This document shows, one piece after another, positions 57,410 through 60,820 of a stretch of DNA of 60,820 nt (position 1 is its first letter; the number at the start of each line of letters is the position of its first letter). Below the pieces are notes generated by a model. It had not been told where the DNA came from. It saw nothing but the letters and a program-made list of their open reading frames with translations, and ran no database searches. The DNA is taken from contig NZ_BJDK01000021.1 of NCBI RefSeq assembly GCF_005405105.1, positions 1-60,820 of the forward strand. Reading direction: 5' to 3'. This stretch comes from Lactiplantibacillus dongliensis (lineage in GTDB: Bacteria; Bacillota; Bacilli; Lactobacillales; Lactobacillaceae). A program made the position numbers and the translations under genes.

Positions 57410-58579
57410 TTAGTGATTGATTAACAGTCGGACGCGATTGACTGCCGGAATTTTATTTAGCGCGTCGATAAGTTGTTGACTGCTTTCGTGATCCAAGTCA
57501 TCAACATCAATAATCGTGTAGGCGGTCTGCTTCTTGGCAGCGTTAGCCATCGTGGCGATGTTTAATCCGGCGGCGGCTAACTTTTGCGTGATTTGGCTGA
57601 CCATATTAGGCACGTTTTGATGGATGACGGTGAAGCGATAAGCAGCATTGAAGGGCACGTTTAACGTTGGCAGATTAATCGCATATTGAACATTGCCAGT
57701 CTCCAAATAGGTCATAATCGTCTGGGCAGCTTGCGTGGCCCCGTTGATCTCGGCTTCAATGGTGGACCCGCCAATATGTGGCGTGACGGTAATATCAGCG
57801 TGATTAGCTATTCGTGGCTCACCAAAGTCGGTGTAATAATGTGCGAGTCTGCCGGCTTTTAAGGCATCCAAAACAGCCCCGTTATCGACAATCCCACCCC
57901 GCGAGTAATTAAACAGTTGGACTTGTGGCTGCATTGCGGCCAGCTCAGGAGCGCCTAGTAAGTTTAACGTGTCTTCTTCTTTAGGTACGTGAACAGTGAC
58001 ATAATCTGCGTTTTTAACGGCGGTTTCGATGCTATCGGCGCGTTGGACTTGTTTGGCAATGTTCCAAGCAGCGTCGGCTGACAAATATGGGTCGTAACCG
58101 ATAACGTGCATCCCGAGACCTAGGGCAGCATTAGCGACCAGAGAGCCGACGTGGCCTAAGCCAATGACAGCCAGGGTCTTGCCTAATAATTCAGTGCCGT
58201 TAAACTTCGTCTTATCGTGTTCTGTCCGTTGTGAGACATCGGCTTCCGTGTGTTGGGCGGAGTAGTTGGCCGCAGCCATCAAGTTGCGTGACGCGATTAT
58301 CAGAAGCGCAATAATCAATTCTTTGACCGCGTTGGCGTTGCTACCGGGCGTGTTGAAGACGGCAGTCCCGTTCGCCGTGGCAGCCTCTAAGGGCACATTG
58401 TTTACCCCAGCACCGGCCCGGGCGATGACTTTGAGGGATTTTGGTAAAGCTTGGTGGTGCAGATCAACGGAGCGAATCAAATAAGCATCCGGTTCGTCAC
58501 TTTGATTTAATTGATAATCGGTTGTAAAGGCATCCAGACCAGCTTGCGCAATCGCATTATAAGTTTTAATTTGATACAT
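57410..58579 (-). CDS. serA: D-3-phosphoglycerate dehydrogenase
   Basis: A 389-residue NAD-dependent dehydrogenase, first step of serine synthesis (3-phosphoglycerate to 3-phosphohydroxypyruvate). Rossmann motif VIGLGHVGSLVANAALG, catalytic region NYSRGGIVDNGAVL, active-site His in VTPHIGGSTIEAE, and a C-terminal ACT domain (RFTVIHQNVPNMVSQITQKL), the shorter type without the allosteric-substrate-binding domain; the ACT domain may bind serine. ATG 58579 overlaps the end of serC by 14 bases with GGAGGA upstream, so it is coupled to serC. Controlled from the serine leader upstream of serC. Confidence 0.93.
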   Translation of the reverse strand: MYQIKTYNAIAQAGLDAFTTDYQLNQSDEPDAYLIRSVDLHHQALPKSLKVIARAGAGVNNVPLEAATANGTAVFNTPGSNANAVKELIIALLIIASRNLMAAANYSAQHTEADVSQRTEHDKTKFNGTELLGKTLAVIGLGHVGSLVANAALGLGMHVIGYDPYLSADAAWNIAKQVQRADSIETAVKNADYVTVHVPKEEDTLNLLGAPELAAMQPQVQLFNYSRGGIVDNGAVLDALKAGRLAHYYTDFGEPRIANHADITVTPHIGGSTIEAEINGATQAAQTIMTYLETGNVQYAINLPTLNVPFNAAYRFTVIHQNVPNMVSQITQKLAAAGLNIATMANAAKKQTAYTIIDVDDLDHESSQQLIDALNKIPAVNRVRLLINH

Positions 58580-59669
58580 CGGTCAATTCCTCCTTGGCAT
58601 GAGTCGCTTCAAAATCAGCTAAATAATCAACTAGTGCTTGGACCCCGGCTTTCGGCATGGCGTTATACAGACTGGCGCGCATACCGCCGACTAACCGGTG
58701 GCCCTTTAAGTTTAAGAGCCCACGATCCGTGGCGCCCGCGATGACTTGGGCATCCAATGCCGGTTTACCAGTGACAAATGGCATGTTCATTAACGAGCGG
58801 TCAGCGGGTTTGACGTGACTTGTGAAGAGTTTTGATTGGTCTAAGAAGTCATATAACAACGCGGCTTTGTCACGATTGCGCTGTTCCATTGCGGCTAAAC
58901 CACCTTGGGCTTTTAACCATTTCAAAACTAATCCGGCCGCATAAATAGCAAAGACGGGTGGCGTGTTGAACATTGAACGCTTGTCGGCGAATAGTTGATA
59001 ATCCAGCATGCTAGGTAGATTTTGAGCTTGACCGATTAAGTCGTCGCGGACAATGACAATCGTTAAGCCAGCTGGTCCTAAGTTCTTTTGGGCGCCGGCA
59101 AAGATCATGCCAAAGTCGGTCACTTGATACTGTTGGCCTAAAAAGTTTGACGACATATCTGCCACCAACGGGACATGACCCGTTTGTGGGAGCATCGTGT
59201 ACGCCGTGCCTTCAATCGTATTGTTAGTCGTGAGATGCACGTAGTCGAGGGCTTGATCAACTGGCTGGTCCAGTGTTGGTAGTGCCGTGAAGTGATTGTC
59301 CGCAGCCGTGCCAAGAATATCAACTTTAGTGCCGACTCGCCGGGCTTCATCGGCTGCCCGACTCGCCCAATGCCCACTATCGAGTAGCCCGATATGATGA
59401 TGCTTAGTCGCCAGATTTAATGGCGCCGCGGTGAATTGCAAGGTGCCGCCACCTTGGAAGAAGAGCACACGATAATTAGCTGGAATCCCCATTAACTCAC
59501 GCAGATCTGCTTCGGCGTCACTGATGACTTGATCGAAGAGGGCGGAGCGGTGTGAGATTTCCATAATACTCATGCCAGAACCTTGAAATGATGGTAGTTC
59601 GGCTTGAATTTGGTCAATCACGGGTTTCGGCATAACGGCGGGACCCGCTGCAAAGTTATAAGTTGTCAT
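58566..59669 (-). CDS. serC: phosphoserine aminotransferase
   Basis: A 367-residue class V PLP aminotransferase, second step of serine synthesis (phosphohydroxypyruvate plus glutamate to phosphoserine). Starts YNFAAGPAVMPKPV, has the PLP Lys in AGAQKNLGPAG and RSLMNMPF near the C-terminus. ATG 59669, with GAAAGTGGG upstream (weak site). It is the first structural gene after the leader peptide and attenuator. The phosphatase SerB, needed for the last step, is not in this window. Confidence 0.94.
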   Translation of the reverse strand: MTTYNFAAGPAVMPKPVIDQIQAELPSFQGSGMSIMEISHRSALFDQVISDAEADLRELMGIPANYRVLFFQGGGTLQFTAAPLNLATKHHHIGLLDSGHWASRAADEARRVGTKVDILGTAADNHFTALPTLDQPVDQALDYVHLTTNNTIEGTAYTMLPQTGHVPLVADMSSNFLGQQYQVTDFGMIFAGAQKNLGPAGLTIVIVRDDLIGQAQNLPSMLDYQLFADKRSMFNTPPVFAIYAAGLVLKWLKAQGGLAAMEQRNRDKAALLYDFLDQSKLFTSHVKPADRSLMNMPFVTGKPALDAQVIAGATDRGLLNLKGHRLVGGMRASLYNAMPKAGVQALVDYLADFEATHAKEELTDVSN

Positions 59670-59704
59670 TAAAAGTTCCCACTTTCATTATTAAAATTAG
59701 CCAT

Positions 59705-59740
59705 AAAAAAAGTCCCAATGGTCAGATGACCACGAGGACT
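59705..59740 (-). terminator. attenuator terminator upstream of serC
   Basis: Minus strand: AGTCC...TGGTCA/TGACCA...GGGACT stem followed by seven T, 35 bases before the serC start. Its 5' strand (AGTCC, 59740-59736) is also the 3' part of an alternative helix, see the antiterminator. Confidence 0.85.
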
Positions 59741-59792
59741 GTTAACGTCAAATAGAATAACTGCCCTCATCATTGAATGTTGGTTAACATCC
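59736..59792 (-). promoter_or_regulatory. antiterminator helix of the serC attenuator
   Basis: Minus strand GGATGTTAAC (59792-59783) can pair with GTTAACAGTCC (59746-59736) with a single bulged C. This uses the bases needed for the 5' side of the terminator, so the two structures exclude each other. GATGTT (59791-59786) can in turn pair with AACATC inside the leader ORF, giving a protector helix. Confidence 0.7.
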
Positions 59793-59818
59793 ATGTTCGG
59801 GCTAGTGTTTACACGAAA

Positions 59819-59887
59819 TTAGGCCGACACAGATGTTTGTGTTGACCAGGAGGAGACGATTAAATTGGCATTTTGGTTCATAAACAT
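59819..59887 (-). CDS. serine-rich leader peptide (22 aa) of the serCA attenuator
   Basis: ATG at 59887 with GGAG 8-11 bases upstream opens a 22-codon frame ending in TAA: MFMNQNANLIVSSWSTQTSVSA. Five of the last eleven residues are Ser, encoded by TCC, TCC, TCA, TCT and TCG. It lies between a consensus promoter and a terminator/antiterminator pair ahead of serC. This is the classical layout of ribosome-mediated attenuation: stalling at Ser codons when charged tRNA-Ser is scarce would favour the antiterminator and expression of serC-serA. Confidence 0.8.
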   Translation of the reverse strand: MFMNQNANLIVSSWSTQTSVSA

Positions 59888-59918
59888 CTTGACCACTCCT
59901 TTGATTTCGTATGCCCCC

Positions 59919-59947
59919 AATTTACCAAGTTTATTGCGGCTTGTCAA
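59919..59947 (-). promoter_or_regulatory. promoter of the serine operon
   Basis: Minus strand TTGACA (59947-59942), 17-base spacer, TAAATT (59924-59919) with an upstream TGG; transcription would start about 25 bases before the leader ATG. Confidence 0.8.
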
Positions 59948-60099
59948 TATGAAAATTAAATAAAAATGTGAAAATATATAGAGAATTTAACGATAAGCTC
60001 ATTTTAAGCTACTGTACTAGTGTCCAAGTGTTTGAGCTATTGAATTGGGTTAGTTAGGACTGAAATGACTAGCTAAAGGATTGTGGGTAACTTACAATG

Positions 60100-60244
60100 G
60101 TGATAGTCAATTGCCCCTGAATAAATTCAGAGGCTTGTCGCTCACGTGTCTGACGGCACAGTAGTCCAACATGCCCGTTAGGCACTCCTACGCGTAGTGG
60201 CAACATCATCGGGTAATTGACAGCTACCCGTTTAACTGCCGGGT
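60100..60244 (-). ncRNA. right end and candidate omega (reRNA) region of an IS605-type element
   Basis: Minus-strand sequence 3' of tnpB is non-coding and highly structured (GCCCGTTAGGC- and TACGCGTA-type hairpins) and ends with CCTCTGAATTTATTCAGGGG (60133-60114), the imperfect palindrome expected at an IS200/IS605 right end, then CAATTGAC. In this family the 3' end encodes the guide scaffold of TnpB and the flank supplies the guide. The stretch 59948-60100 shows nothing else. Confidence 0.6.
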
Positions 60245-60820
60245 TTACCCAGCAGTTGTTAGCTTCTTAATCTTTGGGTGCTTGACACCGTTCAACCAGT
60301 CTTGCCCAAGTATTGCAATATTCATGGCTCCTAATCGGTCATCGTTACAACGATATTGACATTGAGCGCACCAATATTCGTGAGTCTCGTGATGACGATT
60401 ATTTTTCTCAATCATGCCACACTTGGGGCATCTCTGTGAGGTGAAGGCCGGATTGACCTTCACAACAGCACTCTGAATGGCTTGAGTCTTATACGTTAAG
60501 AAAGATTCTAGCTGGAAAAATGCCCACGAACGATGACTATTGCGTAGAGGCTTAGGCAGGTCATCGGTGTTAAACGTCACATTAGTTAAATCTTCCAAAA
60601 CAAAAAGCGTATGCGACCCATATGCCGTAACGAGTGTCTTAGCTAACCAATGATTCACATCGGTCATCCAGCGGTTCTCTCGTTGAGCTAGTTGCTTGAG
60701 CTAGTTGCTTAAGCTTTTTCTTAGCAGACTTGGTACCTTTACCTTGTAATTGCCGACGGATCTCTAAGAACTTCTTCCGCTTAAGTAAGATTTTTTGACC
60801 ATCAAAGAATAGTGTTTTCC
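60245..60820 (-). pseudogene. tnpB: tnpB (IS605 OrfB) with 13-bp tandem duplication, 5' end outside window
   Basis: The C-terminal part is intact: FVLEDL (RuvC Glu), the zinc finger TSQRCPKCG ... CAQCQYRC, and NDDRLGAMNI (RuvC Asp). Upstream, codons for KTLFFDGQKILLKRKKFLEI continue in another frame. The break coincides with two adjacent copies of GAGCTAGTTGCTT (60685-60697 and 60698-60710). Removing one copy restores a continuous reading KQLAQRENRWMTDVNHW. TnpB is an RNA-guided nuclease; this copy should be inactive unless the frame is restored. The gene runs off the right edge. Confidence 0.85.

Follow-up and report, generated by a model that had tools for sequence, protein, structure and literature searches.

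The window analysed here, a stretch of 60,820 nucleotides from Lactiplantibacillus dongliensis, carries the serine synthesis genes serC and serA on its minus strand. The serC gene, the presumed target of the regulation discussed below, encodes phosphoserine aminotransferase (58566..59669; Pfam Aminotran_5, PF00266) and overlaps serA, which encodes phosphoglycerate dehydrogenase (57410..58579; Pfam 2-Hacid_dh with a weak ACT match). SerC is 84-98% identical to that of Lactiplantibacillus relatives, and a serA homologue follows serC in 36/36 loci (L021-L056), whether the leader is present or not. Upstream of serC, a sigma-70-type promoter TTGACA-N17-TAAATT at 59919..59947 agrees with the consensus at 10 of 12 bases (TTGACA at 59947..59942 and TAAATT at 59924..59919, separated by a 17-nt spacer, with TG preceding the second hexamer). 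It is followed on the same strand by a Shine-Dalgarno site AAAGGAG (59896..59902) and a leader ORF of 22 codons (59819..59887), with its ATG at 59887 and the stop codon TAA at 59821..59819, which encodes the peptide MFMNQNANLIVSSWSTQTSVSA with five Ser among the last eleven residues. The putative control codons TCC TCC TGG TCA, corresponding to the SSWS serine cluster, occupy 59843..59854. Between the ORF and serC lies an intrinsic terminator with a stem at 59740..59711 and a T-tract at 59705..59711, of whose seven T the first is inside the stem; a folding search gave -17.0 kcal/mol for this hairpin, and a simple scan of 59600-60250 flagged no terminator. The folded leader surpassed all of 200 shuffles in stability (z -2.61). 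An earlier note on this DNA had proposed a serine leader-peptide attenuator in front of serC-serA, and the promoter, the 22-codon ORF with its five Ser, the terminator and the gene order were all found as it described them. A detail was miscounted: the Ser codons of the ORF, TCC TCC TCA TCT TCG, are four different ones and not 'five different TCN codons'. The contig end carries, about 300 bases ahead of the serC promoter, remnants of a TnpB-type transposon gene in two reading frames (60245-60820, minus strand; Pfam Cas12f1-like_TNB); the adjoining 60069-60240 with GCCTCTGAATTTATTCAGGGGC, for which Rfam gave no match, might, as a guess, be the terminal part of its guide RNA.

Conservation of the leader was followed in 397 Lactobacillaceae genomes, 171 of which have serC. 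From these, 150 loci were taken (130 plus 20 of the genus), leaving out the 21 weakest serC matches, and a leader was counted when an ORF of 12-35 codons with the motif SS.S and a Shine-Dalgarno site was present upstream. These criteria, which replaced a first screen by Ser count in a 6-codon window that had picked wrong ORFs in some loci, recognised a leader in 96 of the 150 upstream regions and in 12 of 20 genera, against 1/150 in reverse complements and a mean of 0.75/150 (maximum 2) in 20 rounds of dinucleotide shuffling. Short ORFs and terminators are common, and an ORF of this size containing some Ser codons could by chance come to stand beside an ordinary terminator; the excess over both controls refutes this explanation and leaves it a negligible probability. 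Within Lactiplantibacillus, serC was found in 20 of 21 genomes and the leader ORF with its Ser cluster in 20/20 of these; the sole serC-less genome (G006) is also without a match to the leader pattern. The Ser codons that the earlier note expected to see conserved in relatives are thus kept in the genus and in much of the family. Leaders were also present in Companilactobacillus, Lentilactobacillus, Lacticaseibacillus and Secundilactobacillus. The strict leader is absent from 54 of the 150 family loci, including every locus of 8 of the 20 genera; some of these misses carry similar clusters (SSSWF, SSFGS, SSSTQS, and SFSWS in an ORF starting with TTG), and others have no leader at all. Six loci of Liquorilactobacillus and two of Paucilactobacillus showed no leader, nor did any of 40 serC loci representing six further families of Lactobacillales or of 40 more distant serC loci with at least 250 nt of upstream sequence each.

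A 33-base core pattern, allowing up to three mismatches, matched 55 of the 397 family genomes once each, and the backward pattern matched none. All 55 matches precede serC on its own strand, at a distance of 118-688 nt, and judged by this pattern the leader is therefore dedicated to the serC operon. Folding assigned a hairpin with a T-run between leader ORF and serC in 96/96 leader loci; three of these terminator calls (G240, G371, G348) looked wrong and were dropped, so that 93 loci were folded further, the over-extended G255 and G126 being kept. Searches with the leader peptides gave no match in NCBIfam (five peptides, E up to 1) or in Pfam (the window peptide). In the 10 codons before the cluster, the 20 genus leaders differ 861 times at third positions versus 702 and 552 times at the other two. 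Since the concentration at third positions is only mild, this part of the peptide is weakly constrained.

Individual loci show further variations around serC. Within the genus, the leader of L005/L261 is 688 nt away from serC, with an insert carrying an inverted repeat in between, and in L017 and L018 about 125 extra bases separate the attenuator terminator from serC. In Lacticaseibacillus camelliae and hegangensis (L045, L046) and in L171, the leader reads ISSSRSCCSHLRRP and two Cys codons adjoin the Ser cluster; such a leader may read cysteine too, cysteine being made from serine. All of the six leader-less Liquorilactobacillus loci (L049, L051-L053, L055, L056) share a similar promoter-proximal block CTTGACATA...TACATTCG.AACATTG, which is perhaps a candidate protein-binding site replacing the attenuator. 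Finally, the leader-less L253, L254, L256, L258 and L260 have an opposite-strand tRNA gene about 250-300 bases upstream of serC, a possible gain/loss junction of the operon.

Across the family, the cluster consists of two to four Ser around one variable residue (SSWS, SSSWS, SSKS, SSSLS, SSSSRS, SSWSSS, SSQSSS and others). Its 366 Ser codons comprise TCC 180, TCT 97, TCA 68, AGC 11, AGT 10 and TCG 0, whereas long ORFs of L021-L056 (n = 2436) encode Ser by TCC 10%, TCT 14%, TCA 26%, TCG 11%, AGC 17% and AGT 22%. Codons of the UCN type thus make up 94% of the cluster (345/366) versus 61% of the background, and TCC alone 49% versus 10%, where the loci are related and hence not independent draws. 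Because two to four Ser are retained around one variable residue and AGC or AGT, each no fewer than two substitutions away from TCN, stands in for TCN at 21 of the 366 positions, we attribute the conservation to selection on serine. The bias towards UCN, and within it towards TCC, leaves the 'general serine charging' proposed in the earlier note unsupported. In Bacillus subtilis under serine starvation, ribosome density was described as rising at UCN and not at AGC/AGU codons (PMC3862929, in the part considered here); a slowing of this kind would explain the avoidance of AGY in the cluster. The preference for TCC would in turn be explained by complementarity of TCCTCC to the Shine-Dalgarno site of the leader. 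The two readings of codon choice compete, yet they can coexist and need not exclude each other.

The trp attenuator has four segments. In the serC-serA leader, folds with the ribosome placed at various codons in 19 representative loci gave a scheme of six, A to F, with A:B taken from a separate fold. On the minus strand of the window, segment A (GGTCAACACA, 59838..59847, coordinates obtained by counting) has the 3' part of B as its partner when free of the ribosome. Segment B (AACATCTGTGTCGGCC, 59822..59837) is the end of the ORF and pairs either with A, through 59822-59831, or with C, through 59827-59837, and segment C (AGCCCGAACATGGATGTTAAC, 59783..59803), directly past the ORF, has B or D as partner. 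Segment D (AACATTCAATGATGAGGGC, 59763..59781) pairs with C in the off state or, via GATGAGGGC at 59763-59771, with E in the on state, where it would act as antiterminator; E (AGTCCTCGTGGTC, 59728..59740) and F (GACCATTGGGACT, 59711..59723) are the 5' and 3' arms of the terminator. The pairing set A:B, C:D and E:F (off) is thus opposed to B:C and D:E (on). B begins to pair at a median of 9 nt after the start of the final Ser codon of the cluster (91 loci). The individual steps were not equally clean in all representative folds, and in several of them D:E persisted with the ribosome at the stop codon until F was added. The leader therefore comprises an ORF rich in serine codons with a ribosome-binding site (the promoter scan being that of the window), an intrinsic terminator and an antiterminator, D:E, that excludes it. 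The earlier note had missed segments A, B and C, which lie inside the ORF and directly behind it.

Within the genus (20 sequences), 93% of the cells are paired in B:C, 90% in C:D, 88% in D:E and 97% in E:F. The covariation score was reached by none of 500 shuffles for D:E and for E:F, by 2 for C:D and by 7 for B:C; when pairs changed on both sides are considered, E:F alone stands out clearly, and covariation of B:C and C:D within the genus is modest. Because relatedness of the sequences can by itself produce values above those of the shuffles, even where there is no structure, we take the genus covariation as modest support. Partners were then exchanged between genera, and own partners were compared with those of other genera: BxC went from -17.0 to -13.4, CxD from -12.9 to -10.1 and DxE from -12.0 to -8.4, so that other-genus partners were worse by 2.9-3.6 kcal/mol, and own partners did better than the swapped mean in 78/93, 67/93 and 81/93 loci for B:C, C:D and D:E, respectively. 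Compensation keeps these helices more than sequence does. Together with the conservation of the ORF, these compensatory changes in alternative helices support the serine attenuator that the earlier note had placed before serC-serA. The specific antiterminator it had drawn, GGATGTTAAC:GTTAACAGTCC, corresponds to a C:E helix and is not supported: it can be drawn in the window and 81% of its cells are paired in the 20 genus sequences, but 81 of 500 shuffles reach its score and it gives no covariation signal, whereas D:E does. In two Secundilactobacillus-group loci C and E are alike and both complementary to D, and a C:E antiterminator could therefore not be general.

A structured RNA working without a translated ORF, that is, a T-box, a riboswitch or a protein-binding leader followed by a terminator, would have precedents at serine genes. 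A serine T-box has been described on serA of Paenibacillus polymyxa (PMC8002221), which resembles the present leader in preceding a serine-synthesis gene, in its leader terminator and in serine supply as the signal; its effector is a tRNA and the part of that study considered describes no leader peptide, whereas the serC-serA leader has no Rfam T-box. The alphaproteobacterial element RF00517 (PMC1273637) shares the position before serC-serA, but it consists of two stems believed to mask the ribosome-binding site, with no leader peptide or attenuator described in the portion of the paper drawn on, and it has no match in the window. At gathering score, no Rfam family at all, T-box and RF00517 included, was matched in the window, in nine leader-bearing or in two leader-less relatives, in line with the absence of a T-box stated in the earlier note; below threshold, the window gave three matches to unrelated families. 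The T-box motif was absent in 26/26 relatives (L032-L056, L092), and Rfam scans of the regions preceding serC in 20 of the 54 leader-less loci and in 20 of the 40 other-family loci found no T-box in either set. The ORF retains its start codon, Shine-Dalgarno site, reading frame and Ser cluster, and the helices are maintained by compensation as shown above, both of which argue against an RNA acting by itself; we consider this explanation highly improbable.

The one variable codon of the cluster shows a different behavior from its Ser neighbours. When compared with its partner in B, TGG faces CCA in 25/66 loci, with GG:CC alone in 34 more, AAG faces CTT in 8/10, CGG faces CCG in 5/6, CAG faces CTG in 2/2 and TTG faces CAA in 1/9; at least two of its three bases are paired with B in 83/93 loci. 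When the variable codon was exchanged among loci, the fold lost stability (-11.67 versus a mean of -10.90 over 50 rounds, best -11.05). The variable codon thus tends to match the A:B pairing; Ser is kept as an amino acid and the neighbouring residue can follow the helix. These data also bear on a nascent-chain arrest peptide, in which SSWS would stall the ribosome alone or together with a small molecule and serine supply would not be read. The motif is compact, conserved and close to the C-terminus, as would suit such a peptide, and drug-responsive leaders are known, for example that of streptococcal msrD (PMC10314930, as far as the cited part goes). However, the position inside the cluster is filled by W, K, L, R or Q, with a tendency to match the RNA pairing partner, the residues past the cluster vary or are nearly absent so that the Ser run is what stays, and the downstream genes make serine. 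An arrest peptide is thus quite unlikely.

The dependence of the structure on ribosome position was assessed in 93 loci as the energy needed to open E when the transcript stops short of F. Such transcripts were used because equilibrium folding of the full leader yields the terminator in nearly every state: once the terminator is complete, E:F dominates nearly wherever the ribosome stands, and the effect of ribosome position disappears. If real, the switch must therefore be kinetic. In the shortened transcripts, the mean opening cost of E was 9.64 kcal/mol for a ribosome on the cluster, compared with 4.20 for one at the stop codon, which means that the antiterminator is favoured with a ribosome on the control codons. 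The difference exceeded 1 kcal/mol in 89/93 loci and did so in the reverse direction in 0/93; it was lacking in four loci, G144, G255, G126 and G013, the last of these deviating by 1.0 in the opposite direction. Along the ORF, the mean profile ran at 5.0-5.8 kcal/mol upstream, peaked at 10.4 on the cluster and fell to 4.6 some codons past it. The cluster value reached the upstream maximum within 0.2 in 91/93 loci and, among the 82 loci long enough for the comparison, lay above the downstream maximum in 81. In the window, opening E cost 9.6 with the ribosome at the second Ser, 4.0-5.4 with it ahead of codon 11 and 2.7 with it at the stop codon.

Shuffling the RNA that is exposed between both ribosome positions reduced the difference from 5.72 to 1.29; 90/93 loci lay above their own shuffle mean and 55 above all 30 shuffles. 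In three g13 loci the real sequence was on average no different from its shuffles (3.4 versus 3.2), which do as well. With footprints of 9, 12 and 15 nt, 79, 88 and 86 of the 93 loci fitted and 3, 0 and 0 showed the opposite. Two attenuators of Escherichia coli served as positive controls and behaved as expected (trpL 9.3 to 0.0, thrL 8.3 to 0.4). For hisL the assay barely responded (3.3 to 3.0) and thus fails to detect at least one genuine attenuator. Without a ribosome the mean was 5.41, nearer to the stop state than to the Ser state in 79/93 loci. The window itself does not fit a default-off step, its ribosome-free value of 7.8 being nearer to the Ser stall (8.6) than to the stop (2.7).

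The preference for TCC noted above leads to another explanation, in which the Ser codons act mainly as RNA, TCCTCC closing the Shine-Dalgarno site of the leader and gating its translation, with serine sensing secondary or absent. In the window, TCCTCC at 59849-59854 is a partial complement of the site at 59896-59902. At least five contiguous bases of the site are complementary to the cluster in 78/96 loci, and opening the site costs 5.7 kcal/mol versus 2.8 when the Ser codons follow background usage. Own pairs of site and cluster reached -10.56 versus a swapped mean of -10.21 (best -10.44, 20 rounds); this gain is small, however, and 18/96 loci are without five contiguous pairs. Moreover, the A-F pairings are fitted to a ribosome positioned at the cluster. 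As the main function of the codons, it is unlikely; gating and attenuation may coexist.

Leader-peptide attenuation is a textbook control of amino-acid operons. Those parts of the literature that were consulted describe it for trp, phe, thr, leu and his and name candidate cases among cysteine and ilv genes; serine is not included. Amino-acid genes of Lactobacillaceae are known above all for T-boxes, 291 of them in 15 genomes according to the portion of one survey used here (PMC3766115), and a term search in the main text of another that covers L. plantarum gave no mention of serA or serC (PMC2494555). Phrase searches of the open-access literature gave no paper on a serine leader peptide or serine attenuator, and there was none among the papers listed by wider searches, in agreement with the earlier note, which knew of no description. 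Classical attenuators are found in this T-box-known phylum, the Firmicutes: the portions of the reports considered describe His leaders of bacilli (PMC2965389), his operon attenuators in the B. cereus group, some Eubacteriales and Erysipelotrichales (PMC9413887) and a Leu-rich ilv-leu attenuator in Staphylococcus aureus (PMC5794164). The serC-serA leader is like them in this respect and differs in that none of them, as far as these sources go, senses serine, precedes serC-serA or is reported from Lactobacillaceae. With E. coli thrL and trpL it shares a leader ORF with control codons and a sequestration of the terminator arm that is highest with the ribosome there, whereas the amino acids and the organisms are others. 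The closest topology is that of the enteric his operon, where AB, CD and EF form the off state and BC and DE the on state and where a ribosome covering A leads to the on state (PMC10989985, in the part considered); unlike in hisL, the codons are those of serine, segment A overlaps the control codons and the host belongs to the Lactobacillaceae. Because hisL gave almost no signal in the folding assay, this likeness rests on topology and not on that assay.

From this entirely computational evidence we therefore propose, with a probability of roughly 0.87, that the serC-serA leader is a ribosome-mediated transcription attenuator that would read serine tRNA charging, most likely of the UCN kind. 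Transcription is predicted to start just downstream of 59919, after which a ribosome would load on the leader ORF. With charged serine tRNA, it would reach the stop codon and cover B, leaving C:D and E:F to form, and transcription would end. With uncharged serine tRNA, it would wait on TCC TCC TGG TCA and cover A, so that B stays free; B:C and then D:E could form before F is made, no terminator would arise and serC-serA would be transcribed. In the ribosome-free transcript an A:B helix is possible, and it would place the leader of most relatives nearer to the off state. The interpretation of the earlier note is retained in the serine leader-peptide attenuator and the missing T-box, and abandoned in its specific antiterminator, its codon count and the general charging.

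A wider reading, to which we give somewhat less than an even chance, is that the attenuator is old within Lactobacillaceae and that its control codons have three jobs: they would read the charging of UCN tRNA, with AGY nearly excluded and TCC preferred, supply strand A of a helix competing with the on state, and, as TCCTCC, close their own Shine-Dalgarno site, so that the sensing codons would gate translation of the leader. The attenuator class itself is old; new are its specificity for serine, the clade in which it occurs and a possible threefold use of its control codons. With 345 of 366 control codons of the UCN type, the element is a natural test for unequal charge loss among isoacceptor tRNAs. 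A leader-peptide attenuator for serine, common to many food and gut lactobacilli, would fill a gap in amino-acid attenuation.
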